Below, piece by piece: positions 4,829 to 40,763 of a stretch of 64,000 nt of DNA. Numbering within the stretch: position 1 is the first letter of the stretch; each line of letters begins with the position of its first letter. The translations under genes were made by a program, and so were the position numbers. The stretch is taken from positions 1 through 64,000 of the forward strand of contig JAKIWE010000003.1 of the NCBI GenBank assembly GCA_022750195.1, written 5' to 3'. The notes beneath the pieces were generated by a model. The model saw only the letters and a program-made list of their open reading frames with translations, was not told the origin of the DNA and did no database searches. Source of the stretch: Thermoplasmata archaeon (GTDB lineage Archaea > Thermoplasmatota > Thermoplasmata > Lutacidiplasmatales > UBA184).

Positions 4829-7800
4829 CTAGCCCGGTCCGCCCGACCCGTCCTCGGGGCTCTCGCCCTCGACCGGCTGCGGCTCGGCCGCGCTCGGCGC
4901 CCGCGGCGCGCTGCGCCGCCGGAACACCAGGAAGCCGACCAACAGCCCTACGACCAGCAGTACCGCCAACAGTCCGAACGCCAGCGGCTCCCCCGCCGTC
5001 GCGCTCCCCGTGCTCTTCACGGGGTACACGGGTGCGAACGCTGCCGTCTCCTTGACCGGCCCGTTGACCGTCAGCGTCGTGCTCGCGAGCGCTCCGGTGT
5101 AGGCCCCGGTCCCGCTCCCGGTCCAGTTCGCGAACACCTCGCTCGCGTTCGCCGGCGTAGCGCTCAATGTCACCGTCGCCCCGGCGTTCACCCAGCCGGC
5201 GGCCGTCGGGCTCGCGCTCGCGCTCCCTCCGGACCCGCTCGTCACCGTCACTAGGAACTGCTCGGTGAAGCTCACCGTCACCGTGGCGTTCGCCGCCACC
5301 GACACCGACAGGCTCGCCGTCACTCCGCTCACGTTCGCCACGTACCGCGTGTCCGTCCCGACGTAGACGGGCGGCACGACCACCGTGTACGAACCGTTCA
5401 GTCCCGCGATCGTTAGCCCCGTGCCGCTCCCGTGCGCGCCCGTCGTCCCGATCGTCGCCGCCCACGCCGCCGTGCTGGGCAGTCCGCTCTCCGTCACCGT
5501 CAGGTTGTAGGTCTTTGGCGCGACGTTCGGCGCCCACAGGAACTGGCCGGTCTCCCACACCGGGCTCCCCAGCGTCAGCGAGATCGTCTTCGCCACCGAG
5601 TTGACCGACCCGACCCCCGAGCCGTTCCAGCCCACGAACTTGTAGTGGCTCGCCGGCGTCGCGCTCACCATCACGGTCGCCGTCGGCGACTCCCAGCTCG
5701 TTCCGGCCCCGGGAGAGATCGTCCCGTTCCCCGTCGAGCTGAGCGTCAGCAGATACTCCGGCGCGAACGTCACGTTCACGTATCCGTTCGCCACGACCTC
5801 GAGCGCTCCTCCCGCCGTCTGCGCGAACGAGCTCTGCGTCACCGTCGGCACGTACCGCGTCTCGTTCGAGCTGTTCAGATACACGTAGCCCACGTTCACG
5901 CTGTAGTTCCCCGAGGAGAGCCCGCTCACCCGGAACGTCCCGTTGCCGGTGTACGCCCGACTGCCGAGGCCGATCGTGAAGGCGAGCGTGCTGGGCAGCC
6001 CGACCCCTTTCACCGTCACCGTCCAGGTCGACGGCGGCAGGTGCACGAACGCTGCGAACTCCGTCACCGGCCCGCTCGGCGTCACAGAGATCGCCGGGTT
6101 CGACGAGTTCACCGCCCCGAGACCGTCGCCCGTCCAGCTGACGAACGAGTAGCCGGGGTCCGGCGTCGCGTTCAGGTGCACCGTCCGCGAGGCCTTCACC
6201 CACTGGCTGCTCTGGTTGACCGTCCCTCCGGCGCCCGCGGCGAGGGTGAGGTAGAAGGCCGGCGAGTAGACGAACTGCGCGAGCGTCGGTCCGTTGATCG
6301 GAACGTTCGCTGGCGTGGTGTAGTTCGTGAACGAGCTGTTCAGGACGAGCGGCTGCGTCGTCAGCAGGCTCGGGTAGAATCCGCTCCCGTTGGTCAGGTA
6401 GACCGGCGAGGCGTTGAGGGCGTAGCTACCACCCCGCAAGGCGAAGGAGGTCGCGTTCCCCTGGACCCCGTAGCCGTTCCCGCCGATTGACATGGCCCAG
6501 CTCTGGCCGTTCGGCAATCCCGTCTGGTTGACGAACAACGGGAACACCGCCGCGCTGGGCAGCTCCCGCTGGAACTGCACGTTCACGATCGAGTCGGTCG
6601 GGAGCTCCACCGGCGAGGCTGGCGTGCCGGTCCCGACCCAGTACTCCCCGGCGCCCGCCGGGATGGTCCAGACGTAGTAGTAGGCGATCTTGCTCGTCGC
6701 GGTGCCCGAGACGTAGATCCAGGACGTGTTCGAGGTGATCGTCGTCACCGCCCCGGAGCCCTGCACGCTCACCGTCCAGTTCTGGCCGACGGGCAGACCG
6801 TTCTCATGGAAGGCGATCGAGGAGTTCTGCTTCCAACAGGTGTCGTAGGAGAAGTACGGCGGGTCCTTTTCGACCGTACACCAACCGGTGAGGTCGAAGT
6901 TCGCGGTCATGTTGATCGGGCCCCGCGCGGTGATCGTCGTCAGGTTCGACGACGTGTTGACGGACCCGGCGCCGTTGCCGGTCCACGACTCGAACGAGAG
7001 GTTCAGCTCGTTAAAGTAGCAGAAGCCGGCGGGGCAGTTCTGCGACCGGTTCGTGACGTTGAGCACGAACGACGTTCCCGGCGAGACCCAGTTCGGACCC
7101 GGGTCCGGCGTGATGTTGTAGTTGATCATCGCGCAGTACGGATTGTCCCAGATCAGGAGGCCGCAGTAGGTACCGTACGGGCTCGACCCTGGAATGAACG
7201 GCACCGAGGTGATGTTCACCAGCACCTGTTCGGTGAACGTGTCGGTGACCGTGGTATTCGCGGTGATCACGGTGGGCGAGACGAGGCTGAGGGCGCCAAA
7301 GTACCGGACGCCGTAGCCGGCGGCCGGGTTCGAGAGGTTGAAGCTGACGTTCGACCCGTCGGGGATGCCGGAGACCTGCAGCGGCGCGGGGGCCACGGCC
7401 GAGCGTGCGTTGCCTTGCACGCTCACCGACCAGCCGGTGCCGGCCTGCAGGCCGGTCTCGGTGAAATTCAGGTCCCAGCCGGACCCTTCGAACAGCCTCG
7501 AGACCTGGATCTGGGTGACGCCCTGACCGGGGTAGCCGGGCCACGTGCAGTAGGCGACCGTGGGGTTCAGGCAGATGTCGAGGGTCCAGCCGATGTAGAC
7601 GTTCGTGCCGACCGCGAGCAACGTGTCGTACTCGCCGTCCGGATAGTACGGCATCAGCGTCATGTTCGACGAGATGGTGATGGCGCTCGAGAAGGTCGCG
7701 CCGTTGTCCGTGGAGCTCGCGAACGCCTGCGACTGCTCCCCGCAGGTCGTCCCGTAGATGTAGGGGCCGCAGAGCGACTCGTTGTACTCGGTGAACTCGA

Positions 7801-9265
7801 CGAGCACCGTCCCGGTCGCGTTGACCGTGACGGAGGGGTTGTACATCTGGAAGCCGTGGAAATAATCGCTCAGCTCCGGGGCGATGACGTGGGGGCGTGA
7901 CCAGCTGGCCCCATCGGTCGACGAGTTGACGACGAACACCTGCTGGTAGCTCGCCGGGTAGCAGCCGTACGAGTAGCACTTCAGGATGACCTGAAAGGCA
8001 CCGTAGCTCAGGAGCAGCTGGCCGGTCGCCGCCCCGTAGGCGAGCTGGGGGGACGGGTCGTGGAACGGGTCTCGGTAGGCGACGAAGCCGGTCGCGTGAA
8101 CGGCCACGGCGTACGCAAACGTGGTGCCGTTATCGGTCGATCGCGCGACCTCGATGTCGGTGAAGTAGGTGTAGTTCGTGGTCGAGTAGGTCAGGTTGGT
8201 GCCGTAGGTGACGTAGAGCTCCCCGCCCGCCCCGACGATCACCTGCGGGTTGTAGGAGAAGCTCCATCCGGCGGAGCCGAACGACTGGAGGTCGATCTGG
8301 GCTCCCCAGCTCGCCCCGCCGTCCGTCGAGACCCGCAGATGGACCCCGGCCGAGGCGGTCGTCGAGTAGTACTCGTCCTTCGTGTCGTTCATCCACGTCA
8401 CGTAGACGGTCGACCCGGTCGCCGTCGCCCAGGGGCGCAGGGGCGCGAACGCCGAGGCGTTGAGCCCGGGGTTGCTCGAGGAGTTGAGCACCGTCGGCAT
8501 GGTCCAGGAGAGCCCGTTATCGTAGCTCTCGCGGACGACGAGGCGGTCGAACGGCACTGAGTAGCTGTACGGGCCCCACCCGCCGTAGGCGAGGCTGTTC
8601 GGAATCTGGACGGTGCTCGTGACGTTGAACTCGACGTAGGCAAGTACTAGCGTCCCGTTGGCGAGCGACGTCAAGCTCGGCGTCCAGGCGTCTGGGTAGT
8701 CGCTCGCGACCGTGCAATCCGGATTGCCGAGATAGCTCGGCGTCGTCCAGGTCGCTCCCCCGTCGCTCGAGCTGGCGAAGCCGATCTGCGTGACCGTGTA
8801 GTTCGTGACGTTGGTGCAGGTGGAGGTGTTCGTGTAGGCGGTGTAGGCGACCGCGAGCAGCCCGTTCGAGGTGTAGTTGAGCGACGGGTCGTTGGTGATG
8901 TTCCCGCACGTGTAACCCCCGTAGTAGTTCCGTAGGCACGGTAGGGTGTTGTTCGGCGGGTCGGGGATCTGCGCCGTCGTGAAGAACGTGCCGCGTCCGG
9001 AGGCGACCGGACCGGCGGCCGGATGGGGCGCCATCGGAGCGCCGGAGGCGAGCGGGTTGTGGCTGGACGCAGCGCTCCCCAGGTGCGTGGTCGCGGCAGG
9101 GAGGTAACCGAACGCCGGGCTGCCGACCGGCGCGTGACCGACGGCACCGAGAGCGGACGCCGACGGGAAGGCGAACACGGCGGCGAGCAGGATCACCGTC
9201 CAGGGCGTCGAGCGCGCGAGGAGGCGTCGCACGGCGGCGCGGAGCGCCGAGACGTTGCTCGTCAT
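4829..9265 (-). CDS. B1: giant membrane-anchored surface protein (Asp-box propeller + G-L-P and InlB-like repeats)
   Basis: 1478 aa. A signal peptide with basic N-region (RRLLAR) and hydrophobic core lies at residues 20-40. A propeller region at about 85-595 carries six Asp-box-like motifs (SSDGGATW, SYDNGLSW, STDGGASW, STDNGTTF, STDGASW, STDNGATF), consistent with a six-bladed sialidase-type fold; no sialidase F/Y-R-I-P motif is seen, so binding is likelier than catalysis. Residues 601-1410 alternate five 'ETGLP.G..W' repeats with four InlB-B-like repeats (FESWTGNG, FVSWTGDG, FVGWNGSG, FANWTGSG). A B-type signature with paired Cys ('WDNPYC', 'NYNITPDPGPNW') is at 701-730. One membrane helix at about 1426-1448 is followed by RRR and an acidic Pro/Gly tail. 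N-glycosylation sequons are very dense. The tail matches B2, whereas the membrane-proximal ectodomain is identical to B3: a mosaic. Convergent with the gene ending at 4739. Role (adhesion or recognition) is inferred. Confidence 0.92.
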   Translation of the reverse strand: MTSNVSALRAAVRRLLARSTPWTVILLAAVFAFPSASALGAVGHAPVGSPAFGYLPAATTHLGSAASSHNPLASGAPMAPHPAAGPVASGRGTFFTTAQIPDPPNNTLPCLRNYYGGYTCGNITNDPSLNYTSNGLLAVAYTAYTNTSTCTNVTNYTVTQIGFASSSDGGATWTTPSYLGNPDCTVASDYPDAWTPSLTSLANGTLVLAYVEFNVTSTVQIPNSLAYGGWGPYSYSVPFDRLVVRESYDNGLSWTMPTVLNSSSNPGLNASAFAPLRPWATATGSTVYVTWMNDTKDEYYSTTASAGVHLRVSTDGGASWGAQIDLQSFGSAGWSFSYNPQVIVGAGGELYVTYGTNLTYSTTNYTYFTDIEVARSTDNGTTFAYAVAVHATGFVAYRDPFHDPSPQLAYGAATGQLLLSYGAFQVILKCYSYGCYPASYQQVFVVNSSTDGASWSRPHVIAPELSDYFHGFQMYNPSVTVNATGTVLVEFTEYNESLCGPYIYGTTCGEQSQAFASSTDNGATFSSAITISSNMTLMPYYPDGEYDTLLAVGTNVYIGWTLDICLNPTVAYCTWPGYPGQGVTQIQVSRLFEGSGWDLNFTETGLQAGTGWSVSVQGNARSAVAPAPLQVSGIPDGSNVSFNLSNPAAGYGVRYFGALSLVSPTVITANTTVTDTFTEQVLVNITSVPFIPGSSPYGTYCGLLIWDNPYCAMINYNITPDPGPNWVSPGTSFVLNVTNRSQNCPAGFCYFNELNLSFESWTGNGAGSVNTSSNLTTITARGPINMTANFDLTGWCTVEKDPPYFSYDTCWKQNSSIAFHENGLPVGQNWTVSVQGSGAVTTITSNTSWIYVSGTATSKIAYYYVWTIPAGAGEYWVGTGTPASPVELPTDSIVNVQFQRELPSAAVFPLFVNQTGLPNGQSWAMSIGGNGYGVQGNATSFALRGGSYALNASPVYLTNGSGFYPSLLTTQPLVLNSSFTNYTTPANVPINGPTLAQFVYSPAFYLTLAAGAGGTVNQSSQWVKASRTVHLNATPDPGYSFVSWTGDGLGAVNSSNPAISVTPSGPVTEFAAFVHLPPSTWTVTVKGVGLPSTLAFTIGLGSRAYTGNGTFRVSGLSSGNYSVNVGYVYLNSSNETRYVPTVTQSSFAQTAGGALEVVANGYVNVTFAPEYLLTLSSTGNGTISPGAGTSWESPTATVMVSATPASHYKFVGWNGSGVGSVNSVAKTISLTLGSPVWETGQFLWAPNVAPKTYNLTVTESGLPSTAAWAATIGTTGAHGSGTGLTIAGLNGSYTVVVPPVYVGTDTRYVANVSGVTASLSVSVAANATVTVSFTEQFLVTVTSGSGGSASASPTAAGWVNAGATVTLSATPANASEVFANWTGSGTGAYTGALASTTLTVNGPVKETAAFAPVYPVKSTGSATAGEPLAFGLLAVLLVVGLLVGFLVFRRRSAPRAPSAAEPQPVEGESPEDGSGGPG
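4914..6194 (-). repeat. Near-identical 1.28-kb tract shared by B1 and B3 (copy 1)
   Basis: Matches 22917-24197 at a constant offset of 18003 bp with only a couple of differences, both close to the 3' end of the gene. It covers residues 1026-1452 of B1: the last repeats, the membrane helix and the RRRS stop-transfer. Similarity falls abruptly at 6194, where B1 reads GGCCTTCACC and B3 GGCCTGGACC. Confidence 0.93.
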
Positions 9266-12200
9266 GTCGATCCCCCGCCCGTCATGTCCTCCCCTGCGCT
9301 CGAACTCTCCATCGAACCTCCGTCGTGCACGTAATCACCCGAGGGCGCGGATCCCGCCCCGCTGGCCATCGGCTCGGAAGGCCCGCGCATCTCCGTCCCT
9401 CCACCGCCGCGGCCGCCACGCATTCGCGCGGCGAGCAGCCCAACGATGAGCCCGACCACCAACCCTACGACCGCCAGGCCCACCAGCAGCCCCGAGGAGG
9501 TGTACGCGCTCGACACCGTCTTCGCCGCCGGTGCCGGCGGCACGAAGGTCGCTACCTCGCTCACCGGAGCGTTCACGTGGATCTGGCTCTGGTTGAGCGG
9601 CCCGGTGTACGACCCCGTCCCGCTCCCCGTCCACCCCGCGAACAACGCCGGCGCCGTCGCGCTCGCCACCAGCGTCACCGACGAACCCGCCGCGAACCAG
9701 CCGTCCGAGCTCGGCGTGACCGTTCCCGGCCCCACCGCCCGGATGCTGAACCAGTAGTACGCGCCGAAGGCGACCTGCGAGCTGCCGTTCGCGCTCAGGT
9801 GCAACGGCGCCGGCGCCACCGGCCGCCACTCCGTCTGCCCGTCCGTGCTACTGACCGTGCTGACCGTGACCGCGTAGCTCCCCGCGAGCAGCCCCGTCAC
9901 GTTCAGGTAGTTCGTCTCCGACGAGTAGTCCACTCCGTTCAACGCCAGGCTCCAGCTCGTCCCCGCCGGGAACCCCGGCGTCGCCTGGAACGACCAGCTA
10001 TACCGCATCGGCGGTGGAATGATGATCGGCGCGAACACCGCGAGCTCGCTCACCGGCCCGAACAGTTGCACCTGCGGCTGCGCCTGCGCCCCGGTGTAGT
10101 TCCCGTTCCCCGTCCCGTTCCACCCCAGGAACTGGTAACCGGAGTTCGCGCTCGCTGCCAACGACACCAGCGCGCTGCTCGCTACCCACGACCCGTTCGA
10201 GATCACCGACGCGCCCACCACCGCTGAGATCGATCCCCCGGCGGTCGTGGACAACGTGAGGAAGTACTGCGGAGCGAAGTGCACCGTCGTCGCCGCGCCC
10301 CCGCACACCGTGCTCGGCGGGGCGACCGGGACATACCGCGTCTGCGCTGGGGTCCCGTTCGCATACTCGTACGGCAGGCCCAGACCGTAGGAGCCGCGCC
10401 CCCCGGAGACCGCGCACGAGTAGACCTGGCTCACGTTGATCTGCCAGTTCGTGGAGGAGTAGCCGACCCCGCCGACATACGCCGTCCAGCTCGTCCCGTT
10501 CGGGATCCCCATCTCCTGCACGGTGAGATTGAACCGAGCGCCCGGTAGGGGGACGAACGTCGCCGTCTCCACGACCGGCCCGTTGACCGTCACATTCGCC
10601 GTCGCGTTCATCCCGGTGTAGGAGCCGACGCCCGTCCCCGTCCACCCGGCGAAGGTGTAGCCGACGTTCGCCGCCGCCGTGAACGATTTCATCGTCCCGG
10701 GGGCGACCCAGAAGTCCGACGTCGCCGGGGAGACCCGACCGCCGAAGCCGGAGACGACCTGGAGCTGGAAGGCGGAGGAATAGTTGACCAGGTAGGTGCT
10801 CCCCGGGACGACGTCCACGGTCGCCGGGAGGGTGTCGGGCGTGTACCCGACGCTGCCGTTCTGCGCCGTCACCGGGAACGCCGCCTGCGTGAACGTGCCC
10901 GGGTGCGTCGTGATGTTGATCCACGGCGTCGTCGAGCTGTACAACGTTCCGTTAAACTCGAAGTTCCAGACCGTCCCCGCCGTGAACCCGTTCGCCTGGA
11001 ACGTGACGACGCCCGCCGGCGCCGAGAGGTTCTCGTAGGCGAAGGAGAGGTTGTCCGACGGAACATCGGGCACGAGCAGCGGGTTGCCGCCGTCGGAGCG
11101 GCCGATGTACTGCCAGCCGGACTTCGAGGAGTTCGCGGTGATGGAGTCCAGCCAGTGCGGCCCGGTCTGCACCTGATGGGCCGTGATGCTCTGGGTCGCC
11201 GGTCCGGAGTACGCCGCGCCGTCCAGGTTGAAGGAAAATACCGAGGTGGCGGGGAGACCGATCGCGTTGAACGAAACGTTGTAGATGCCGATCGGCAACG
11301 CCCACGCGGTCTCGTTCACCGGTCCGTTGAGCGTGAGGTTCGCGTCCGGCCCGAGACCGGTGAAGTTCGCGTTCCCGGAGCCGGTCCAGTAGTTGATGGG
11401 CGCGGAGCTGGTGTAGTACTCGTAGATCGGTGGCGACGCGGTCGGCGTGAGGTCCAGGTGCATCCCCAGGGGGAGGTACCAGGGGAAGACGCAGCCGTAG
11501 AAGTAGGAATTGACCGTGCCAAAGGCGGAGGTGTACCATTGGGCGTAGAAGTTGAAGCTGTGGCCGCTGGTGTTGTAGAGATCGAGGTAGAAGTTCTGGA
11601 GGTCCGGCGGCTGGATCGCGACGCTGAGCCCGACGAACTTCGTGAAGTAGAAGGTGAAGTTCGCCGCGGCGTACTCGACCAGCATCTGCTGGGGGTCGCT
11701 CACCCCGGTGTACTCCTCGTACCCCGTCCAGGTCCGGACCCCTGTCCACGCGACGAACACCGGCAGGCCGACCGGGAAGTTCGAGATCGTCGTGTTGTTG
11801 GTCGAGAGCGTGTAGTAGTTCACGCCGGCGTTGAACGACCAGGAGCTGCCGGGGGCGAGCCCGGTCTCCCAGACGGTAACGTTCACCGTGGGGCCGACAT
11901 ACACGGAGTCGACCTGGACGACGTTGTTGTAGTAGATGTCGGGGTAGAAGTAGCCGCTCACCAAGGTCATCACGTCCGCGACGAACAGCGCTCCCGTCGC
12001 GTTGAAGCCGACCGAGGCGGTGTAGCCGAGGTCGTTGTCCCCACCGAAGGTCTGCGGCTGGACCGTGAGCGGCCCCGGGGGCGTCCAACCGATACCGTTC
12101 GTGCTGGTCGTGAGCCACTGGCTGTAGGAGTAGCCGAGGTACGTGGAGTAACCGCAGTTCGCGTTCGAGTAGTTGTACTCCGTGTAGGTGAGGTAGACAG

Positions 12201-13668
12201 TACCGTCGTGGACGCCGAGGGCCGGCGTGAAGTAGCCTCCCTCGAAGATCTGGCCGTGCAGGATCTCCGGCCCGGAAGCGCGCCCGGAGACCCAGTTCAC
12301 TCCGGCGTTGGTGGAGACGCCGGCGAAGATGACGGCCTGGTCGAAGTTGTAGTAGATGTAGGTCGACAGCGCGTTGTACGATGCCTCCCACGCCACGTAG
12401 AGGTTGCCGGAGAGCGGGTCGTAGGCGATGGTCGTCGCCGGTGCGAACTCGAAGAGGAACGGCAGGAAGTTGCCGGTCGTGTAGCTGTAGGAGAAGTACT
12501 GCGGCTCGCCCTGGCCGAAGGCGACCGTGTACGGCCCGTTCCAGGTGGTTCCGTTGGTCGAGGAGGTCGCCACGACGATGTCCTCCCCGTAGGCGGGATA
12601 GAGGCCGCACTGAGCGATGCACGATCGGTTCGTGTCGTACGCCACGGCCACGAGGCCGGAAGAGGTGACGGTGATCGACGGGGAGTAGGAGGTGTTGTAC
12701 CAGGAGGTGTTCTCGCCGGCGAGCGTGTACGGGCCGTGCCAGGTCGTCCCCTGGTCGCTCGAGTAGAGCAGGTTGATCGAGACCGGGTACTCCGAACTCG
12801 GATAGGCGGGGATGATCGACGTGTTCCCGGCGCTCACGTTCTCGTAGACGATGTAGATGGTGTGGCCGAACGTGGCGATCGCCGGGCGGCTTACGTTGCC
12901 CGTGACCAGGGTGGTCGCATTGGAAAAGCTCGTCCCGTCGTTCGTCGAGTTGACGAACGCGAGCGCGTCATTGTATCGCGGATAGTAGTAGGCCAGCGGC
13001 GCGTAGAACGGGTAGTAGTTCATTTTGGACGCCGTTGAGTTCGCCTCGACGAACGCCCCGTCGATCGTCCCGGACGGCGCGACGGTGAACGACGGCTCGA
13101 ACTGCTGGGCGTACGGGCAGCTCTCGTTGATGTAGGTCGGGTTCCCGAAGGAGCTACCACCGTTGGAGGAGGAAGCGAACAGCACGCGGATGAACGTGTA
13201 CAGTGAGATGTTGATCGTGCCCGAGCCGTTCGCGTTCGGACCGGAGGTGACGCACGTCGAGGTGTTGTAGCTCGTGATCTGACTGAAGGTGATGCCCAGG
13301 TTGCCGCTCGACAGGTTGAGCAGCGAAGGGCTCTGCGACTGGCGGTCGCAGAAGAACTCGAACCCGAAGTAGCTCTGGCAGTTGGTGTAGCTCGAGGAGG
13401 CTTGAGAGAACGACGAGGTGTTCTGGAAAAAGGTTCCCGTGACGGTCGGCGAGCTCAGGGCCCGCACGCCGTGATTTTCCGGCGCCGCCGGAACGACCGC
13501 GGCCGACGGGTGCGCGACCCGGTGCGGCGCGGCCGCGAGCCCCGCCGAGGGCCCGTGCCCGAGCAGCCCCGGTGTCGGTAGCAGTACCGCGACCAGCGCG
13601 ATGGCGGCGAGCGCCGCCCAGTTCGTTCGGACCCAGCGTACGGAATATCCTCCGCCCGGCGAGGACAT
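9262..13668 (-). CDS. A1: giant membrane-anchored surface protein, partner type A
   Basis: 1468 aa. Hydrophobic signal segment at residues 17-37. Six Asp-box-like motifs mark a propeller at about 75-595: SSNGGSSF near 168, STNDGTSF 241, SSDQGTTW 303, STNGTTW 370, STNAGVNW 452, STNGIGW 522. Five G-L-P-type repeats start near 601, 803, 893, 1053 and 1231, interleaved with four InlB-like repeats near 760, 1003, 1178 and 1342. The A-type signature 'GC.FPWYLP' is at 725-733. The membrane helix is at about 1393-1415, with a Gly/Ser-rich cytoplasmic tail of about 50 residues. The ATG at 13668 lies 26 bp downstream of the shared promoter box, implying a leaderless transcript; the stop overlaps the B1 start (ATGA), so A1 and B1 are probably translationally coupled. 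Residues about 1080-1420 are identical to A3. Extracellular and single-pass; ligand and function unknown. Confidence 0.92.
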   Translation of the reverse strand: MSSPGGGYSVRWVRTNWAALAAIALVAVLLPTPGLLGHGPSAGLAAAPHRVAHPSAAVVPAAPENHGVRALSSPTVTGTFFQNTSSFSQASSSYTNCQSYFGFEFFCDRQSQSPSLLNLSSGNLGITFSQITSYNTSTCVTSGPNANGSGTINISLYTFIRVLFASSSNGGSSFGNPTYINESCPYAQQFEPSFTVAPSGTIDGAFVEANSTASKMNYYPFYAPLAYYYPRYNDALAFVNSTNDGTSFSNATTLVTGNVSRPAIATFGHTIYIVYENVSAGNTSIIPAYPSSEYPVSINLLYSSDQGTTWHGPYTLAGENTSWYNTSYSPSITVTSSGLVAVAYDTNRSCIAQCGLYPAYGEDIVVATSSTNGTTWNGPYTVAFGQGEPQYFSYSYTTGNFLPFLFEFAPATTIAYDPLSGNLYVAWEASYNALSTYIYYNFDQAVIFAGVSTNAGVNWVSGRASGPEILHGQIFEGGYFTPALGVHDGTVYLTYTEYNYSNANCGYSTYLGYSYSQWLTTSTNGIGWTPPGPLTVQPQTFGGDNDLGYTASVGFNATGALFVADVMTLVSGYFYPDIYYNNVVQVDSVYVGPTVNVTVWETGLAPGSSWSFNAGVNYYTLSTNNTTISNFPVGLPVFVAWTGVRTWTGYEEYTGVSDPQQMLVEYAAANFTFYFTKFVGLSVAIQPPDLQNFYLDLYNTSGHSFNFYAQWYTSAFGTVNSYFYGCVFPWYLPLGMHLDLTPTASPPIYEYYTSSAPINYWTGSGNANFTGLGPDANLTLNGPVNETAWALPIGIYNVSFNAIGLPATSVFSFNLDGAAYSGPATQSITAHQVQTGPHWLDSITANSSKSGWQYIGRSDGGNPLLVPDVPSDNLSFAYENLSAPAGVVTFQANGFTAGTVWNFEFNGTLYSSTTPWINITTHPGTFTQAAFPVTAQNGSVGYTPDTLPATVDVVPGSTYLVNYSSAFQLQVVSGFGGRVSPATSDFWVAPGTMKSFTAAANVGYTFAGWTGTGVGSYTGMNATANVTVNGPVVETATFVPLPGARFNLTVQEMGIPNGTSWTAYVGGVGYSSTNWQINVSQVYSCAVSGGRGSYGLGLPYEYANGTPAQTRYVPVAPPSTVCGGAATTVHFAPQYFLTLSTTAGGSISAVVGASVISNGSWVASSALVSLAASANSGYQFLGWNGTGNGNYTGAQAQPQVQLFGPVSELAVFAPIIIPPPMRYSWSFQATPGFPAGTSWSLALNGVDYSSETNYLNVTGLLAGSYAVTVSTVSSTDGQTEWRPVAPAPLHLSANGSSQVAFGAYYWFSIRAVGPGTVTPSSDGWFAAGSSVTLVASATAPALFAGWTGSGTGSYTGPLNQSQIHVNAPVSEVATFVPPAPAAKTVSSAYTSSGLLVGLAVVGLVVGLIVGLLAARMRGGRGGGGTEMRGPSEPMASGAGSAPSGDYVHDGGSMESSSAGEDMTGGGST
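9430..10430 (-). repeat. Near-identical 1.0-kb tract shared by A1 and A3 (copy 1)
   Basis: Matches 27460-28460 at an offset of 18030 bp; I noticed a single substitution inside (10389 versus 28419). It covers A1 residues about 1080-1413, that is the last two repeat pairs and the membrane helix. High but imperfect similarity continues a further 350 bp upstream. Confidence 0.92.
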
Positions 13669-13693
13669 AATCGGCGGGGACCGGGTCGCCTGT

Positions 13694-13706
13694 CAAATAC
13701 CTTTAC
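13694..13706 (-). promoter_or_regulatory. Promoter of the A1-B1 operon (shared box)
   Basis: Reads GTAAAGGTATTTG on the minus strand, 26 bp from the ATG of A1. The same 12-13 bp recur at the same distance before A2, A3 and A4 while the surrounding spacer sequence differs, so the box is under constraint. Interpreted as BRE/TATA element giving a leaderless mRNA. Confidence 0.75.
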
Positions 13707-31851: not shown

Positions 31852-34800
31852 TTACGGCGCCGGTCCTTCCGAATAGACCGACGCGTCGCTGCCCTCGTCC
31901 ATGCCCGGCTCGCCCGGCGTCTCGGCCGACCACGCGGGGGTGGGGCCGGCGGAGGGAGGTCGGCGGCGGCCCACGATCAGCCCGATCACGAGGCCGAGAA
32001 CGAGTAGGACCGCCAGCAGCCCGAAAGCGATCGGAACGCCCGCCGTGGTGCTGCCGGTCTTGACGATCGGGTAGGCGGGGGAGAACGTGGCCCGCTCGCT
32101 CACGGGCCCGTTGACCGTCAGGGTCAGCACGCCGGTCGTCTGATTCACCGCGTCGGCCCCGGTGCCGTTCCAGGAACGGAGCAGCGAGGTCGCGTTCGGC
32201 GTCGCGGTCAACGTCAGTTGGCTTCCCTTCGTCATCCAGAGCATTCCGCTCGGCGTGACAGAGCCGCCTAGGCCGCCGGTCACCTGGACCTCGAACTGCT
32301 CGAGGAAGTCGACCGTGATCGAACGGTTGGAGGTGACCATCTCGGTCGCGTTCGCCGTAAGGTTCGCGACGTACCGGGTCCCCGACCCAACGAGGACCGG
32401 CGCGACGGTGAGCACGTAGCTTCCGTTGAGACCTTCCACGAGGAGGTTCGAGAGCGTGCCGGCCGCTCCGGTCACGCCGACGCTGAACGCCCACGGCAGG
32501 TTGGCCGGAAGCCCGGAGGCGGTGACCGTCAGGTGGAAGGTCGCCGGAGGGATCGTCGGCGCCCAGACGAACTGGGCGGTCTCCCACAGCGGGCTCCCGA
32601 CCGTCGGGTCGATCGCGAGGAGCGGAGAGTTGAGCGCCCCATTCCCCGTGCCGTTCCAAGAGAGGAGCTGGTAGTGGCGCGTCGGCGTCGCGGAGAGCGG
32701 GAAGCTCTGACCGCCCGTCACCCAGTAGCTTCCGGGCGACGGCGTCACCGAGCCGTTTCCGGTGGACCCGACGGTGACCAGGTACTGGGTCGTGTAGGTG
32801 ACCACGACCGAGCCGTTCGCCGCGATCTGCAGCGTTCCTCCGGCCCCCATCGTGTAGCTGGTGCCGCTCACCGACGGGATGAACCGCGTCTGGTTCGAGC
32901 TGTTCAGGTAGACGTAGGGGACACTCAGCGCGTAGCTGCCGCTGGAGAGGCCGGAGACGTTGAACGAGCCGTGGCCACTATAGGCCCGGTCCCCGAGACC
33001 GACCGTGAACGCGGTGCCCGACGGGAGGCCGACCTCGGAGACGACCACCGTCCAGAGAGGGAGGGGGATCGGATGGAAGGTCGCGAGTTCGCGGACCGGC
33101 GCGATCGGATGGACGGTGATCGTGAGGCTGCTCGAGGTCACCGAGCCCGCCCCGGAGCCGGTCCAGCCCACGAAGTAGTACCCCGTCTGGGGGGTCGCGG
33201 TCAGGGCGGTTCCGGCGCCGTTCTCGACCCACTCGCTCGACGGAGTGACCGAACCGCCGGGACTCGCTGTGGTCTCGAGCCAGAACTGCGGCTTGTAGAC
33301 GACCGTGACGAAGGTAGCGCCATGGACCGAGAGCGGGTTCAGCGGAACGGTGGTCGTGTTCGACCAGCTGCCGTTCTCGATGAGGGGTAGGACGTCGAAC
33401 CCCGACGCGTAGAAGCCGGTGCCGTTCTGGAAGAAGACCGGCGAGGCGTTGACGGCATGCAGGCCCCCGCCGACCGTGTAGCTGGCCGAGGGGCCCCGGA
33501 CCCCGTACATCGCCCCGTCGACCGACGACGACCAGGTCGTCCCGTTCGGAAGCCCGGTCTGATTGAGCTGCAGGGGGAACTCGAGGCCGGTCGCGTTGAC
33601 GAGCGTGAACGTCACCTGGATCAGGCTCTGGGAGGGGAGCACGACCGGGGAGACCGGAGTTGTGCGGCCGACCCAATAGTCACCGGTGGCGGCGTCCGGG
33701 ACCGTCCAGACCTGGAAGTCGGTCGCCCCGATCGTCGCGTTGCCGGTGACGGTGAGCACGTTGGTCGTGCTCGAGTTGGTCGTGAAGTTCCGGCCGTCCG
33801 GGCTCCAGATCGACACCGACCACGGCACGCCGCTCGGGAGGCCGCTCTGGAGGAAGGTGAGGGTGCCGTTCGCCGTACGGCACTTCTGGACCGGCGTCCC
33901 GTAGTAGTAGTAGAAGCACCAGCCGTTGATGTTGAAGGTCGCCGTCTCGTTGATCGGCCCGTGCACGGTCAAGGTCGTGGCGTTGCTGACGGTGTTGACG
34001 CTACCATTGCCCGTCCCCGCCCACGAGTCGAAGGTCAGGTTCAGGTAGGTCGTGTCGTAGCAGTAGTAGCCCGCCCCACAGTACACCGGCACCTTCTCCG
34101 CTGAGACGTTCACGGAGGCGCCCGGCGAGACCCAGTCGGGGCCGGGCGCGGGGGTGAGGTTGTAGTTCGTCTTCGAGCAGGACGGGAAGTCCCAGTAGAA
34201 TCCCTGGTAGGCGGAGCAGTAGTAGTACGTGTACGGGTAGCTTCGGAGCATCGGCTCGGTGAGGACGTTGACCAGGAACTTCTCCGTGAAGTTGTCGTAG
34301 ACCGTCGTGTTGCTCGTGACGGTCCACGACCCGTTGAGGCTCAGGACCCCTGAGTACCGGATCCCGTAGCCGCCGGAGATGTTCGTCACGTTCCAGGTGA
34401 TGTTATCGCCGCTCGGGATCCCGGTGATCGTGAGGTTGGCCGGCGCGTAGCCGCTCACGACGTTCCCCATCACCTGGGCCGACCAGAGGGTGCCGCTCGT
34501 GATGCCGGTTTCGTTGAAGGTGAGCGAGAGACCGCTCCCGGCGAACAGGGAGGAGACGTGGACCTCCGCGAGACCGGTCGAGCCGATCCAGTAGCAGGTC
34601 GAGTAGCTGACGACCGGGCAGACGACCATCGTCCAAGCGATGAACACGCTGCTCCCCGCGGTGACCAGGGTCGCGTACTCTCCGTCGGGGTTGCTCGCGT
34701 AGATCGACGTGTTGTCCGACACCAAGACACTAGGGCCGAAGGTACGACCGTTGTCGAGGGAGGTGGCGTACTCCTCCGAGAGCTCCCCGCAGACCCTCGA

Positions 34801-36354
34801 ACCGTACACGTTGAGGGCGCACTCCGAGTAGTTGTAGTAGCTCACGGCGAGGTGGAGGGTGCCGCCGCCATCGTAGCCGATCGCGGGATTGTACACCGAA
34901 TAGCTGGACAGGCCGAGGGCGTTCAGCCACGGCTCGGCGATTTTCGGCGTCGACCAGCTGGCCCCGTTGGTCGAGGAGTTGGTCACCCAGACCGTGGGGA
35001 GCTCCGAATAGTAGCAACCGTAGTAGTAGCAGACCTGCCCGACGGTGTACGCGGCGAACGCCACGGCGATCTCCCCGTTCGCCGGGGAGTACGCGATCTG
35101 CGGGGACGGGTCCTGACTCAGCCAGCGGTACGAGAGCCAGACGTCCCTCGCCGCGATCGCGTAGGTGAAGCTCGTGCCGTTGTCGGCGGAGCTCGCGACG
35201 ATGACGTCCGCGGTGCCAACATAGTAGAAGCACGTGCCCCCGATGCAGGAGTTGTACAGGACCGAGACGTTCGACGCGTAGGCGACCAGCAGCTCGCCCC
35301 CCGCGCCGATGGTGACCGTTGAGTACTGGGCGATGTGGGCGTCCTTCCCCACGTAGGTCTTCAGGGTCACCGGCGAGCCCCAGGTCGACCCGCCGTCGGT
35401 GGAGACGATGAGGTGCACGGCGGAGGAGCCTGAGCTCACGATCGACCCGTTGGTGTAGAGCGTGGTGTACGCGGAGGTCATGTTCGTCCAGGTCACGTAG
35501 ATGGTCTGGCCGGTGGCGGTGATCCACGGACGGACTGCCGCGAAGCTGTGCGCATTGGCGAGGAGGTTCGCGGAGGCGTTGAGGACCGTCGGCGTGGTCC
35601 AGTTCGTTCCGTTGTTGTAGCTCTCTGTCACGACGAGCCGATCGTAGGTGACGGTGTAGGTGAACGGCCCGAAGTAGAGGTACGGCATCGAGTAGAAAGA
35701 GGTCGACACGTTGAACTCGATGTACGCGAGGACGAGGGTCCCGTTCGCGAGGGAGGTGAGCGTCGGCTGGTAGGCGCTCGAGTAGTTCGTGTTCGGCCCG
35801 CTCGCGCAGACCGGGTTCCCCAGGTAGATCGGCGAGCTCCAGCTCGCACCCTGGTCGGTCGACGCCACGAAGCCGACCTCCGTCTTGGCGTACCCCGCGG
35901 CCCCGGCACACGGGGCGAGCGTCGTGTAGGTCGTGTAGGCGGCGGCGAGGAGGCCGGTCGACGTGTAGTTGACGGACGGGTCGTTAGTCACGTTCTCCGT
36001 TGTGCCGTAGTACGACGTCTGGTTCGCGGGTACCGGGTTCGGGATCGCGCCGGGCACGAAGAAGGTCCCGCGCTGCGAGGAGGGGGGTGTGAGCGGGGCC
36101 GCACGGAGTGCGGCCGGCGCAGCGACGGAGGCGTGGGCCGCGAGGGGCGATGCCGGAGCTGTAGGGGAACTCACCGGGCTCGAAAGGGCGTGGGCGAGGG
36201 GGGTCGCGGCCGATCCCGTCGACGAGCCGAGCGCAACGCCCGCCGACAGCAGCAGGGTTAGCACCACGCCGACCGCGAAGAGCCCCTGGACCCAGGCGCG
36301 GCGCGGAGGGCTCTCCCGCCGGACGTCGACCGCCGTCGAGGGAACGCTCCTCAC
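31852..36354 (-). CDS. B4: giant membrane-anchored surface protein, partner type B
   Basis: 1500 aa from GTG 36354, which overlaps the A4 stop as GTGA exactly where the other B genes start; a longer open frame reaches upstream into A4 but is only its shadow. The N-terminus is basic (RRESPPRR) followed by a hydrophobic core 'LFAVGVVLTLLLSAGVALG'. Asp-box-like motifs: STDQGASW, SYNNGTNW, STDGGSTW, SADNGTSF, SSTNGASW, SLDNGRTF. Repeats: ETGITSGTLW, QSGLPSGVPW, QTGLPNGTTW, EVGLPSGTAF, ASGLPANLPW, plus four InlB-like repeats. The B signature appears as 'YWDFPSC' and 'NYNLTPAPGPDW'. Membrane helix 'FGLLAVLLVLGLVIGLIV', then GRRR and a Pro/acidic tail. The most diverged B protein, with no near-identical tract to B1-B3, suggesting an older copy or one outside the conversion network. 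Confidence 0.9.
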   Translation of the reverse strand: MRSVPSTAVDVRRESPPRRAWVQGLFAVGVVLTLLLSAGVALGSSTGSAATPLAHALSSPVSSPTAPASPLAAHASVAAPAALRAAPLTPPSSQRGTFFVPGAIPNPVPANQTSYYGTTENVTNDPSVNYTSTGLLAAAYTTYTTLAPCAGAAGYAKTEVGFVASTDQGASWSSPIYLGNPVCASGPNTNYSSAYQPTLTSLANGTLVLAYIEFNVSTSFYSMPYLYFGPFTYTVTYDRLVVTESYNNGTNWTTPTVLNASANLLANAHSFAAVRPWITATGQTIYVTWTNMTSAYTTLYTNGSIVSSGSSAVHLIVSTDGGSTWGSPVTLKTYVGKDAHIAQYSTVTIGAGGELLVAYASNVSVLYNSCIGGTCFYYVGTADVIVASSADNGTSFTYAIAARDVWLSYRWLSQDPSPQIAYSPANGEIAVAFAAYTVGQVCYYYGCYYSELPTVWVTNSSTNGASWSTPKIAEPWLNALGLSSYSVYNPAIGYDGGGTLHLAVSYYNYSECALNVYGSRVCGELSEEYATSLDNGRTFGPSVLVSDNTSIYASNPDGEYATLVTAGSSVFIAWTMVVCPVVSYSTCYWIGSTGLAEVHVSSLFAGSGLSLTFNETGITSGTLWSAQVMGNVVSGYAPANLTITGIPSGDNITWNVTNISGGYGIRYSGVLSLNGSWTVTSNTTVYDNFTEKFLVNVLTEPMLRSYPYTYYYCSAYQGFYWDFPSCSKTNYNLTPAPGPDWVSPGASVNVSAEKVPVYCGAGYYCYDTTYLNLTFDSWAGTGNGSVNTVSNATTLTVHGPINETATFNINGWCFYYYYGTPVQKCRTANGTLTFLQSGLPSGVPWSVSIWSPDGRNFTTNSSTTNVLTVTGNATIGATDFQVWTVPDAATGDYWVGRTTPVSPVVLPSQSLIQVTFTLVNATGLEFPLQLNQTGLPNGTTWSSSVDGAMYGVRGPSASYTVGGGLHAVNASPVFFQNGTGFYASGFDVLPLIENGSWSNTTTVPLNPLSVHGATFVTVVYKPQFWLETTASPGGSVTPSSEWVENGAGTALTATPQTGYYFVGWTGSGAGSVTSSSLTITVHPIAPVRELATFHPIPLPLWTVVVSEVGLPSGTAFTVGLGDRAYSGHGSFNVSGLSSGSYALSVPYVYLNSSNQTRFIPSVSGTSYTMGAGGTLQIAANGSVVVTYTTQYLVTVGSTGNGSVTPSPGSYWVTGGQSFPLSATPTRHYQLLSWNGTGNGALNSPLLAIDPTVGSPLWETAQFVWAPTIPPATFHLTVTASGLPANLPWAFSVGVTGAAGTLSNLLVEGLNGSYVLTVAPVLVGSGTRYVANLTANATEMVTSNRSITVDFLEQFEVQVTGGLGGSVTPSGMLWMTKGSQLTLTATPNATSLLRSWNGTGADAVNQTTGVLTLTVNGPVSERATFSPAYPIVKTGSTTAGVPIAFGLLAVLLVLGLVIGLIVGRRRPPSAGPTPAWSAETPGEPGMDEGSDASVYSEGPAP

Positions 36355-39300
36355 GGCTCCCCTCCCTCGGGCGGGGGGTTGCCCGGAGGTGGAGCTTCCG
36401 GCGACGACCCTTCCACGGGCTCCGGGGCGTAGGGGGCTGGCGGGGCGCGCCGACCGCGGGCCCTCACGGCGATCAGTCCGATCACGAGCCCGACGACCAG
36501 ACCGACCAGGGCCAACCCGGCCCAGACCGGGACGGTGTTGAACGCGCTCGCGACCTGGACCGCCGGGGGCACGGGCGGGACGAAGGTCGCGACCTCCGTC
36601 ATCGGACCGCCTACGCGGACGCTGGGCGGAGTCGCGTTCGTCCCCGAATACGCCCCGGGACCGGTACCGACCCAGCCGCTGAAGAGGTTCGTGCCGTCCG
36701 GGGTCGCCACGAGCGGGACCGCAGCGTTCGCCGGGAACCATCCACTGGCGGGACTCACGCTCCCTCCTCCGACCTCGGAGATGCTGACCCAGTAGGAGGT
36801 CGCGTAGCTGATCGCGTACGACGAGTTGGCGGTGATCCCGATCCGGGGGTTCACTCCGACCGCGGCGTACTGTGTGAGACCGTCCGGCGTAACGATCGTG
36901 GGGACCGCGACCGAGTACGAGCCCGCGAGCAGGTTACTGATGTTGAGGTAGGCCGTGCTCGACGAGTAGTTCGCGCCGTTGAACGTCACCAACCACGTCT
37001 GGCCCGCGGGCAAGGTCGAGCCCAGGTGGAAGCTCACCCAGTACCGGGGCGGCGGCGGCACGTAGACGATCCCGAACGCAGCGATCTCGGTGATCGGGCC
37101 CTCCATGGCTGCCGAGCCGATCGGCTGGACGCCGGTGAAGTTTCCCGGGGCCCCCGAACCGTTCCAGCCGAGGAAGATGAATCCGGGGTTCGGCGTCGCC
37201 TGGAGCGTGACCGCCGTGAGGCCGGGGACCCAGGTCGAGTTGCTCGAGACCGTCGCACCGAACGCGACGCTCGCGTTGCCGCCGGAGGTCCACTCGAGCG
37301 TGAGGAAGTACTGGGCACTGAAGTTCAGCGACTCGGGCGCACCGCCGCCGCAGAGCGTCGCGGGGTACGGCTTCGCCACGTACCGCGTGAGCGAGGAGGT
37401 GCCGTTGTCGTAGGCGTACGGGACCGTGACCGTGTACCGACCGCGGCCGCCGGAGAACTGGCAGGAGTAGACGTTCGGGACGGTGAGGGTGTTGTTGGTG
37501 GAAGAGTAGCCGACTCCGTTGAGGTTCACGGTCCAGCTCGTCCCGTTCGGAATCCCGTTCTCCGAGAAGCTCAGGTTGAACCGGTCCGCGACCAGCGGGT
37601 AGAACGCGGCGACCTCCACGATCGGACCGTTGGCGGTCACGGTCGCCATGAAGCCGTTGCCGCTGAACGAGCCGGCGCCCTCCCCCGACCAGCCTTGGAA
37701 GGCGTAGCCGATCGCAGGGGTCGCGGTGAAGCTCTTGATCGTTCCGGGGGCGACCCAGTAACTGGAGGTCGTCGGCGAGACGGCCCCTCCGGCCCCGGCG
37801 ACGACGTCGATCCGGTACGCGGGGGTATAGTTCACCTGGTAGGTCTGGCCGGCGTCGAGCGTCCAGGTCGACGGCACGGCGTTCGGTGTATAGCCGGCCG
37901 AACCGTTGTACGAGGTCACCACATACGCCGAGGTTGGGTAGATCCCGGAGTGGGCCGTGACGTTGATCCACGGAGTGTTCGAGCTCAACGTAGAACCGTT
38001 GAACTCGAACTGCCAGACGGTGCCGGGCGTGAGGCCCTGGGCATGGAAGCTGATCGTCCCGAGGGACGACGAGAGGTTCACCGCGGCGAACGACATGTTG
38101 ACGACGCTCTGCAAAGGTACCAGGACCGGGTTGCCGCTCGCGGGGCCGCCGAAGTACGCCCAGCCGCTTTCGGAGCTCGTGGCCTGAGCATGGGTCACCC
38201 AGTAGGCCCCGGTGGTGACGTTCACGGCATGGCCCAACGCTCCGCCGCCCGGGGCGGAGACGTTCTGGCCGTCAAAGGTCAGGTTGAACGTTGAACTGAC
38301 CGGCAGCGTCGGCGCGCCGAAGTACTCCGAGTACGTGCCGTACGGCAGGAGCCACATCGTCTGATTGATCGCGCCGTGAACGGTGAGGTTCGCCGAGGAA
38401 CCGGTGCCGGTGTAGGAGCCGGGTCCGGTGCCGTTCCAGTACGACACCGGGAGCTCGAAGTTGTAGTACGCGTACTGGGGTCCCCCGCTGCTCGACGGCC
38501 GGATCTGCAAGGTGGTGCCGTCGGGGACGTACCACGGGAACGGACAGCCGCTGACCGAGTTGTAGGTGTAACACGTCGTTGGGCTATAGCAGTAGACCTC
38601 CTGCTCGTAGTACTCGTAGTAGGTGTACTGACTCTGGTTGTACACGTACAACTCACTGTAGCCGGAGAGTAGCCCCAGTGGCTGAGGGTTGAAGGCGATC
38701 CCGTCCCACAGGGTATAGTTGAGGTACAGGATCGTGGGCGTCTTGACGACCTGCGCGCCGCTGCTGCTGAGGATCGGCTGGTACTCCCGCCAGTATCCGG
38801 CCGAGGGCGTGGCCGCCGTAACCGGGACGACGACCACCACTTGGGTGGTTGGCACATCGACGACGGTGATGTTCGGGTTGGTCGATTCGAAGACATTCCC
38901 ATCGACAGCGAAGCCCCACCGGCTGCCGGCGGCGAGCCCGTGCTGCTCGACCGTCAAGGTGCTGTTCGTTCCCTGGTACGGCTGCGCTACCATGAGCTTC
39001 ACCTGGTTCACGTACTCGGTGTTCGCGCCGATCGTCTCCTGCTGGAAGCTCAGAGCGACGGCGTAGCCGAGGAGCACAGTGCCCGCCGCGGTGTACCCAA
39101 CGGAGCCGAGGAATCCCTGGTAATCGTAGTAGATGTCGAGGTAGGTGTAGTACCCGGACGACGGCGGTTTCACAACCGCCGCGATCAGCGGGGGGCTCCA
39201 GGTGAGCCCGTTCGTACTGTTCGCCGTCCACAGGGTGATCGAGGGGGAAAGGTAGGTGCCGCTCGCAACCGGGCCACAATTGCCACCGGTGTAGGTCTGG

Positions 39301-40763
39301 TTATACTCGGTGAACGTGAGCGTGACCTCGCCGTTGTTCGCCCCGAGGGCCGGGTTGTAGTACTCGATGCTCCCGCCCGAGTAGGTCGTCTCGGGAACTG
39401 GCGGCGAGGCTAGCGAAGTGTTCCAAGTTACGCCATCGTTCAGCGACGAGCCGACCCCGACCTGGAAATTCGAGTAATCCGAGTAGTAGTACCCGTTGGG
39501 GAGGGAGAGGTTCAGCGCCCCCGCCCACGCCACCTCCCAGGCGGTGGCCGCGTCGTCCCAAGCGATCGCGGTCTCGGGCGCCTCCTGGAAGAGCGCATTG
39601 AAGTAGACGCCTTGGAAGTAGTAGTACTCGCCCACGTTCGATTGGACCTGGAACGGACCCTTCCACGTCGTCCCATTGGTCAAGGACGTCGCGACGACGA
39701 TTTCTTCCCCGTACGCCGCACCGTAGTAGACCCCACAAAAGGCGAGGCACGACCGGTTCGTGGCATACGCGACCGCGACGGTCCCGTTGGAGCTGACCGC
39801 CACGGACGGCGACATCGTCGTGTTCAGCTCCGTCGGATTGAGGCCCGGCAGGGTGTACGGCCCGTGCCACGTACTCCCGTTGTCCGCGGAGTAGACCAAC
39901 TGCACCGCGATTGGGGCGGCCGCCGGGTAGAAGTTGCCGGGGAGGGGACCGGTCCCGTTCGAGATGTTCTCGAAGACGATGTACACCGTCTCCCCGAACG
40001 TGGCAATCTGGGGGCGGGAGATGTTCCCGCCGGCAAGGACGGTGAGCGGCTTCGCGAACTTGGTCCCGTTGGAGCTTATGGAGATGAACCCGAGTGCGTC
40101 GTCGTACCGCGTGGTGTACGTGGTCGTCGGCGAACCGTAGTAGCCGAGGACGCCGTACTGCGTCGCGTTCGATTCCACGAACGCTCCGTAGACGTGGCCG
40201 CTCGGCCCGGCCGCGAACGACGGCTCCAGCGCCTGCTCGTACGAGCAGGTCGTGTTCCCGAGTTGGGTGGTGCTGCCGAAGCTCGTGCCGTTGTTCTTGG
40301 AGATGACCCAGCCCAGCCGAATGCCCGTGTTCGCTCCCGCTCCCGAACACGTATCGGTCGTCCGGGTGGTCACCTGGGAGAAGCCGACGCCGATCTGGCC
40401 GTTGGTCATGCGGACGATCGAGGGATCCTGAGACTGAGGGTAGCAGTAGCCGTAGCTCGTCGAAGTACAGTATGTCTGACTGAACGGCGGGGTAGTGAAG
40501 CCCGAAGTGTTCTGGAAGAAGTTGCCGGAGACGTTTACGCTCGAATTGACGAACGGCCGGGGGGCGATCGGCGCGGGGGCCGCCGACTTTGCCGATGCCG
40601 CCGCTGACGTGGAGTGTCCGGCGGCGGAATGGGTAGCTCCGCCACCGAGGGCCGAGGCCGGAAGCGCGAGGAGCGAGCTGAGGACCACCACCAGCGTGGC
40701 GAACGTGACCAAGCTCGTTCGGAACCAACTAGATCGCATGGACGGCGCCCCCGGGCGGGCCAT
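36351..40763 (-). CDS. A4: giant membrane-anchored surface protein, partner type A
   Basis: 1470 aa from ATG 40763, 25 bp from the promoter box; ATG 40739 (MRSSWF) is an alternative but fits the spacing less well. Signal segment 'FATLVVVLSSLLALPASALG'. Asp-box-like motifs: SKNNGTSF, SSNGTKF, SADNGSTW, SLTNGTTW, SLNDGVTW, STNGLTW. G-L-P-type repeats (QHGLAAGSRW, APTLPVSSTF, AQGLTPGTVW, ENGIPNGTSW, GSTLPAGQTW) and four InlB-like repeats. A signature 'GCPFPWYVP'. A Tyr-rich, Cys-containing insertion before that signature ('YYEYYEQEVYCYSPTTCYTY') is absent from A1-A3. Membrane helix 'WAGLALVGLVVGLVIGLIAV', then a Pro-rich acidic tail. Located at the promoter-proximal end of the array and divergent from the housekeeping cluster. 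Confidence 0.9.
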   Translation of the reverse strand: MARPGAPSMRSSWFRTSLVTFATLVVVLSSLLALPASALGGGATHSAAGHSTSAAASAKSAAPAPIAPRPFVNSSVNVSGNFFQNTSGFTTPPFSQTYCTSTSYGYCYPQSQDPSIVRMTNGQIGVGFSQVTTRTTDTCSGAGANTGIRLGWVISKNNGTSFGSTTQLGNTTCSYEQALEPSFAAGPSGHVYGAFVESNATQYGVLGYYGSPTTTYTTRYDDALGFISISSNGTKFAKPLTVLAGGNISRPQIATFGETVYIVFENISNGTGPLPGNFYPAAAPIAVQLVYSADNGSTWHGPYTLPGLNPTELNTTMSPSVAVSSNGTVAVAYATNRSCLAFCGVYYGAAYGEEIVVATSLTNGTTWKGPFQVQSNVGEYYYFQGVYFNALFQEAPETAIAWDDAATAWEVAWAGALNLSLPNGYYYSDYSNFQVGVGSSLNDGVTWNTSLASPPVPETTYSGGSIEYYNPALGANNGEVTLTFTEYNQTYTGGNCGPVASGTYLSPSITLWTANSTNGLTWSPPLIAAVVKPPSSGYYTYLDIYYDYQGFLGSVGYTAAGTVLLGYAVALSFQQETIGANTEYVNQVKLMVAQPYQGTNSTLTVEQHGLAAGSRWGFAVDGNVFESTNPNITVVDVPTTQVVVVVPVTAATPSAGYWREYQPILSSSGAQVVKTPTILYLNYTLWDGIAFNPQPLGLLSGYSELYVYNQSQYTYYEYYEQEVYCYSPTTCYTYNSVSGCPFPWYVPDGTTLQIRPSSSGGPQYAYYNFELPVSYWNGTGPGSYTGTGSSANLTVHGAINQTMWLLPYGTYSEYFGAPTLPVSSTFNLTFDGQNVSAPGGGALGHAVNVTTGAYWVTHAQATSSESGWAYFGGPASGNPVLVPLQSVVNMSFAAVNLSSSLGTISFHAQGLTPGTVWQFEFNGSTLSSNTPWINVTAHSGIYPTSAYVVTSYNGSAGYTPNAVPSTWTLDAGQTYQVNYTPAYRIDVVAGAGGAVSPTTSSYWVAPGTIKSFTATPAIGYAFQGWSGEGAGSFSGNGFMATVTANGPIVEVAAFYPLVADRFNLSFSENGIPNGTSWTVNLNGVGYSSTNNTLTVPNVYSCQFSGGRGRYTVTVPYAYDNGTSSLTRYVAKPYPATLCGGGAPESLNFSAQYFLTLEWTSGGNASVAFGATVSSNSTWVPGLTAVTLQATPNPGFIFLGWNGSGAPGNFTGVQPIGSAAMEGPITEIAAFGIVYVPPPPRYWVSFHLGSTLPAGQTWLVTFNGANYSSSTAYLNISNLLAGSYSVAVPTIVTPDGLTQYAAVGVNPRIGITANSSYAISYATSYWVSISEVGGGSVSPASGWFPANAAVPLVATPDGTNLFSGWVGTGPGAYSGTNATPPSVRVGGPMTEVATFVPPVPPAVQVASAFNTVPVWAGLALVGLVVGLVIGLIAVRARGRRAPPAPYAPEPVEGSSPEAPPPGNPPPEGGEP

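Follow-up and report, generated by a model that had tools for sequence, protein, structure and literature searches.

A conserved two-gene unit encoding paired giant surface-type proteins in a Thermoplasmata archaeon

The minus strand of contig JAKIWE010000003.1 (assembly GCA_022750195.1), from a Thermoplasmata archaeon whose family probably belongs within Lutacidiplasmatales, carries eight giant genes of two types, A and B, in strict alternation. Do the two types encode partners in one surface system, and what might such a system do? The window, that is, the whole stretch of DNA analysed, comprises positions 1 to 64,000 of the contig (64,000 nt), and all coordinates of the array and its neighbours refer to it. 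No description of the A-B pair was found in the open-licence literature searched, and the words S-layer, adhesi-, glycosyl- and repeat are absent from the main text of the Lutacidiplasmatales paper (PMC9287336).

The array consists of eight open frames without internal stops, all on the minus strand, transcribed in the order A1 B1 A2 B2 A3 B3 A4 B4. They form four A-B units, and their products are 1468–1500 aa long. The first unit comprises A1 (36351..40763, 1470 aa), encoding a signal segment, a sialidase-type head, a stalk, a C-terminal transmembrane segment and a short tail, and B1 (31852..36354, 1500 aa), which starts with the GTG at 36354 within a longer listed ORF (31852–36741). The other units are A2 (27280..31701, 1473 aa) with B2 (22829..27283, 1484 aa), A3 (18227..22654, 1475 aa) with B3 (13773..18230, 1485 aa), and A4 (9262..13668, 1468 aa) with B4 (4829..9265, 1478 aa); residues 70–1060 of A4 and 85–1100 of B4 were modelled. 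In every unit the stop codon of A and the start codon of B overlap by exactly 4 nt: GTGA at 36351–36354 and ATGA at 27280–27283, 18227–18230 and 9262–9265. Between successive units lie 150, 174 and 104 nt. The mechanical ORF list places the A2 and A3 starts at TTG codons; the ATGs at 31701 and 22654 fit better and were preferred, because they are aligned with the other A starts and the TTGs overlap a promoter-like element. The original prediction of eight proteins of this size in strict A-B order with 4-nt overlaps was confirmed when the frames and junctions were re-read. Scans for tRNA genes and Rfam families gave nothing tied to the array, the two tRNA genes found both lying outside it. A tRNA-Pro gene on the plus strand (48509–48587) lies antisense inside a 607-aa ORF (47623–49446), which may be spurious because of this gene and because it has no Pfam match.

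The promoter-like element is an 11-mer, TAAAGGTATTT, located on the minus strand 25 nt upstream of the starts of A1 (40789..40799), A2 (31727..31737) and A3 (22680..22690), and 26 nt upstream of A4 (13695..13705). As the prediction of one promoter per pair would have it, the element stands before each A gene of the array and before no B gene, and these are its only four copies in the whole 2,448,124-base genome; its reversed control has no copies in the same genome. With up to two mismatches allowed, the window contains five matches against 0.61 expected, and one of 100 shuffles reached five. The fifth match, AAAAGGTATAT at 2892–2902, lies 31 nt upstream of the start of a neighbouring gene (2–2860, minus strand) for a large surface-type CarboxypepD_reg protein that runs off the window. 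On the other side of the array, the minus-strand gene at 48645–52334 encodes another large surface-type protein (1229 aa), in which CarboxypepD_reg occurs in four stretches alongside a PEGA domain and a sub-threshold BNR_2 match; its stalk is different, its head perhaps similar. In regions fetched from related genomes the TAAAGGTATTT motif, at up to three mismatches, precedes 22 of the 42 A genes and none of the 46 B genes. The next in-frame start follows 24–29 nt after the motif in 20 of these 22 genes and 13 nt after it in the other two; the remaining 20 A genes have no clear upstream match. We infer that TAAAGGTATTT is a BRE/TATA-type promoter of a leaderless transcript.

The window's own genome contains three more complete A-B loci, two on contig C11 and one on C3, and a fragment on C2. 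At the C3 locus the A and B halves lie within one 3193-aa frame. Other weak matches in this genome cover stalk repeats only. Among 120 genomes drawn from the class, eight have an A match at E ≤ 1e-40; all eight are in the window's own family, and in four of them the match covers only part of the model. The family census comprised 101 genomes, that of the window among them; at E ≤ 1e-30, with the best five candidates per genome scored, 43 match the A model and 37 the B model. Since the presence of the pair is patchy, it is dispensable in the lineage. Regions around these matches were fetched, and every ORF of at least 150 aa was scored in 64 of them. Matches to stalk positions only were left unfetched (G001 C55, G003 C29 and C56, G009 C69, G013 C16, G015 C18 and C23, G019 C175, G020 C64, G021 C77, G041 C17, G071 C74 and G077 C155), and one fetched region, L209, was left unscored, being on the same contig as L154.

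The 64 regions contain 55 separate A ORFs, 56 separate B ORFs and seven joined A-B ORFs. Forty-six of the separate A ORFs are followed by B, seven are cut at the 3'-end, one is followed by another A piece (G030 C27), and one lies 124 nt from a contig end. On the B side, 46 ORFs are preceded by A, eight are cut at the 5'-end, one represents a B in two ORFs, and one is 148 nt away from the end of its contig. The RTGA 4-nt overlap is present at all 47 scored junctions (46 from A to B and one within a split A). Fourteen further regions yielded one more testable pair (G061 C111), again with ATGA; their remaining fragments are cut by a contig end or, in one case (G030 C53), start 28 nt from one. Taken with the four units of the window, 51 out of 51 testable A genes, from 30 genomes in four genera, are followed by B with an RTGA overlap, and the regions fetched contain no unpaired A or B except at or near contig ends. 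As a background, a four-base overlap was counted by simple gene calling in 46 sequences, where 7 of 65 closely spaced gene neighbours on the same strand, other than A/B, have it. The same run recovered it for 44 of 51 A/B neighbours, and the seven without it equal in number the steps from a B to the A of the next unit, of which the window has three and other loci four.

Two loci are unusual in form. At L176 (G030 C27:4239–8998) the head and the stalk of A are encoded by two separate ORFs with an ATGA overlap of their own; this is either an assembly frameshift or a real three-gene version. At L062 (G000 C11:642395–653076) the pair is enlarged, with ORFs of 1652 aa for A and 1915 aa for B, and the head match of this B is interrupted by a long unmatched stretch (ORF residues 194–481).

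Many pairs in relatives stand alone, and tandem sets were also found in G022, G045, G061 and G077. Because so many are single, the conserved unit is the pair and not the array, which is a local amplification.

The seven in-frame A-B ORFs come from G000, G011 (four), G069 and G087; three of them are complete, and the other four run into a contig end. Two of the seven, one from G000 and one from G011, have A and B halves of full length and group as sisters in the tree despite coming from different genera. In all seven, two hydrophobic segments lie between the A stalk and B, so that A and B would both be exposed on the outer side of one membrane. In-frame start codons are present at the joint, and B may therefore still be translated separately. 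A B version without the propeller head was found at three loci, fused to A at L146 (G069 C122) and L149 (G087 C63) and separate at L132 (G046 C36); it keeps the stalk and, where the contig allows, the anchor. Given these three loci, the B head can be dispensable. Fusion of genes is a classical sign of two proteins working together.

These counts bear on the possibility that A and B are co-transcribed paralogs which stay adjacent by operon inheritance and act independently on the surface. They are indeed plain paralogs of the same architecture, and the contact between them is one that we infer. Against independent action stand the retention of both members and of the exact 4-nt overlap in every testable pair across four genera, the lack of lone genes away from contig ends in the fetched regions, and the seven joined ORFs; we regard it as rather unlikely. 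Homologs occurring usually alone, which the original prediction had named as evidence against itself, is thus the opposite of what the pair counts and joined frames gave. Its claim of a heteromeric surface complex fares well as regards a working pair, on the strength of the constant pairing and the joined ORFs, with the physical complex itself staying putative.

A and B are paralogs that align colinearly along their full length (hhalign probability 100; 28% identity across 1343 columns), a relationship on which the original prediction was silent. Both have an N-terminal hydrophobic signal segment, a sialidase-fold head, an InlB-repeat stalk, a C-terminal membrane span and a short tail. In the stalk, PF18998 repeats (Flg_new_2, InlB-type) alternate with G-L-P domains that are matched by no Pfam model. 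PF18998 scored above the gathering threshold in all six proteins scanned against Pfam, with three to four stretches in each; the sole NCBIfam match was the TIGR02543 repeat, below the cut-off in two of four proteins. Read by eye, the order of stalk domains is G-I-G-G-I-G-I-G-I in both A and B. Motif counting recovers most of this order in A, the full order being reached only with one more domain added by eye, and part of it in B. A sequence search of the PDB found no relative, the single match having E = 0.15. AlphaFold models are usable for the heads, whose core strands have pLDDT of about 70–88 with lower values in loops; the models of the stalks are unusable, and the mean pLDDT over the whole model is 43.9 for B and 45.4 for A. 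Foldseek matched both heads to GH33-type sialidases, with best E-values of 3.6e-11 (B) and 5.6e-11 (A). Asp-box-like repeats number six at matching places in seven of the eight window heads and, by the pattern used, five in A1. Together with the Foldseek matches, these repeats assign the heads to the six-bladed Asp-box propeller fold of GH33 sialidases. The domain scans and Foldseek thus bear out the earlier reading of a propeller, InlB-like and G-L-P repeats and an anchor in a Thermoplasmata-type genome.

Such a fold raises the question of catalysis. In GH33 sialidases an N-terminal (F/Y)RIP motif carries the first catalytic Arg, and the active site clusters an Arg triad, an Asp and a Tyr/Glu pair. 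The RIP motif occurs in none of 31 A and two of 31 B sequences. The A heads keep R219, R250, R337, E180, D222, Y261 and E379, each in at least 26 of 31 sequences, with three Arg plus acids kept in 26–30 of them; the B heads have one Arg and no Asp or Glu conserved at 80% (31 sequences). Judging by these residues, the A head may have activity, because it keeps several Arg and acidic positions. This is the pattern that a sialidase-fold surface glycoside hydrolase A with an inactive partner B would give, and the matches of both heads to sialidases agree with it. We nevertheless consider this improbable: besides the near-absence of the RIP motif, the positions of the conserved Arg relative to the Asp-boxes depart from the order usual for GH33, and an archaeon of acid soils seems unlikely to use sialic acid as a substrate.

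A tree of 66 sequences, rooted at its midpoint, separates A and B into two monophyletic groups, and therefore one ancient duplication made the pair. The distance matrices of A and B for 33 pairs correlate with r = 0.90. Random relabelling gave at most 0.23, and relabelling within genomes gave a mean of 0.50 and a maximum of 0.869, with none of 5000 trials reaching the observed value. The two trees have 19 of 30 splits in common, and for 23 of the 33 pairs the nearest neighbour in the A tree is also the nearest in the B tree. The congruent trees show copying of the pair as a unit, which by itself is no proof of co-adaptation; duplication of the unit alone explains them also if A and B act independently.

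Within the array, parts of the stalks (all on the minus strand) are identical between copies. A tract of 957 nt is common to A2 (27463..28419) and A4 (9433..10389), and one of 1242 nt to B2 (22955..24196) and B4 (4952..6193); 345 nt of B3 (13968..14312) are identical in B2 and B4 (5024–5368 in the latter). A1 and B1 have no such tract. The heads of the copies that have these identical stalk ends are only about 48–65% identical at third codon positions. The tracts could be an assembly error, an explanation against which stands the fact that the tails beyond them mostly diverge; gene conversion limited to the stalk is their likely origin. In other genomes, identical runs of at least 30 codons between copies of the same type were found in G094 only, 60 codons each and both at contig ends. 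Antigenic variation by hypervariable heads was considered as well and is unsupported in the one close ortholog set compared: dN/dS of head and stalk is 0.27 vs 0.23 for A and 0.21 vs 0.29 for B. Since in this set the heads have values no higher than the stalks, there is no sign of an arms race.

The main rival to a binding system is a coat, in which A and B would be components of a dense protein layer, ordered or unordered, that protects the cell in a lineage with no known S-layer. An unordered exterior protein layer of about 20 nm, with no S-layer, was seen by cryo-tomography in two Thermoplasmatales (PMC12448462). The proteins themselves suit such a layer in that each A or B carries 45–56 N-glycosylation sequons, A/B ORFs span about 2.8% of this genome, and heads and stalks are under similar purifying selection in the ortholog set. 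The 20-nm layer belongs to another order, however, and no S-layer domain was found either by Pfam in the six of eight proteins scanned or by NCBIfam in four. The distribution is a further objection. No A match at E ≤ 1e-30 was found in 58 of the 101 family genomes, some of them near-complete (best five candidates per genome), and the InlB-repeat family has no match at E ≤ 0.001 in 13 of 21 genomes, including 7 of 12 relatives from the same genus. Such patchiness within the family disfavours an essential coat, and the S-layer-associated role offered as one option at the outset loses ground accordingly; a coat of some kind is the less likely reading.

We favour, at roughly even odds (about 0.5), the reading in which A and B are co-translated and assemble, as its two obligate subunits, into a surface complex anchored in the membrane, with heads that bind and homogenised stalks that support them. 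A heteromer is supported by the invariable A-B pairing, by the precise overlap and by the joined ORFs. The ancient duplication of one gene would have given A and B, and from then on the pair would have been maintained and duplicated as one unit, with occasional fusion of the two genes. Each unit would produce a single transcript starting at A, and ribosomes ending A would re-start on B through the RTGA overlap, so that translation would be coupled and the two chains made in about equal amounts. The A and B chains, putatively in contact, would be anchored side by side in the same membrane with their heads outward, each consisting of a sialidase-fold head in which the usual catalytic motif is missing, a stalk with some nine beta-domains and a C-terminal membrane span. 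The heads, which differ between copies, would be the binding parts, with glycans or other surfaces of cells or minerals as the most likely targets, and the stalks, being homogenised, would be their common support. The surface role is probably binding or adhesion, which we prefer because the heads have no catalytic motif and diverge on common stalks, and because the distribution is that of an accessory, multi-copy system. A more specific version can be put forward tentatively: the A and B stalks might zip together as a generic heteromeric support, kept identical between copies by conversion, and the diverging heads might give each locus a two-headed specificity, the whole forming a receptor repertoire.

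Several known systems resemble the pair in part. SlaA and SlaB of the Sulfolobales form a two-component archaeal S-layer (PMC10903991). They are two different surface glycoproteins that act together, with a stalk and a membrane anchor, as A and B would. SlaA and SlaB are mutually unrelated proteins, and only SlaB has a membrane anchor. Unlike them, A and B are paralogous to each other, have one layout in common, are both anchored and occur in multiple copies; a lattice made of them would be hypothetical. The exterior layer of Cuniculiplasma and Oxyplasma is likewise a protein layer on an S-layer-less membrane in Thermoplasmatota, yet it comes from another order, and a 2025 cryo-EM study of it states that identifying its proteins will take additional work, for instance by proteomics (PMC12448462). 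Secreted YncE-type beta-propellers of 'E-plasma' (Thermoplasmatales) are propeller surface proteins from the same phylum for which a role in intercellular interactions was suggested; they are assigned there to other families (arCOG02560, arCOG02562 and arCOG02532), and the passages on them mention no pairing (PMC10354927). The archaellum built of two alternating subunits (PMC8821640) also has homologous subunits encoded in one operon that form a heteromer, as A and B may do, but its archaellins are proteins of another kind and build a filament. At the level of domains, GH33-type sialidases (BNR, or Asp-box, propellers) have the Asp-box-like repeats and the fold of the heads, whereas the A/B heads nearly all lack the catalytic RIP motif, sit on a giant stalk and come in pairs. 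InlB B-repeat (Listeria-Bacteroides repeat) surface proteins have the PF18998 stretches, with TIGR02543 below the cut-off in A/B; unlike in those proteins, the repeats here alternate with G-L-P domains to form the stalk of a paired system.

The exact 4-nt overlap recurs at all testable junctions but in only 7 of 65 background neighbours, which argues strongly that selection has acted on the coupled translation of two archaeal surface subunits. The identity confined to stalks, if it arose by gene conversion, would be a clear example of domain-limited concerted evolution. The natural versions in which A and B form a single ORF make the heteromer idea directly testable. For the biology of the lineage, the pair is a sequence-defined candidate for a strictly two-part surface system in soil archaea related to the S-layer-less Thermoplasmatota.
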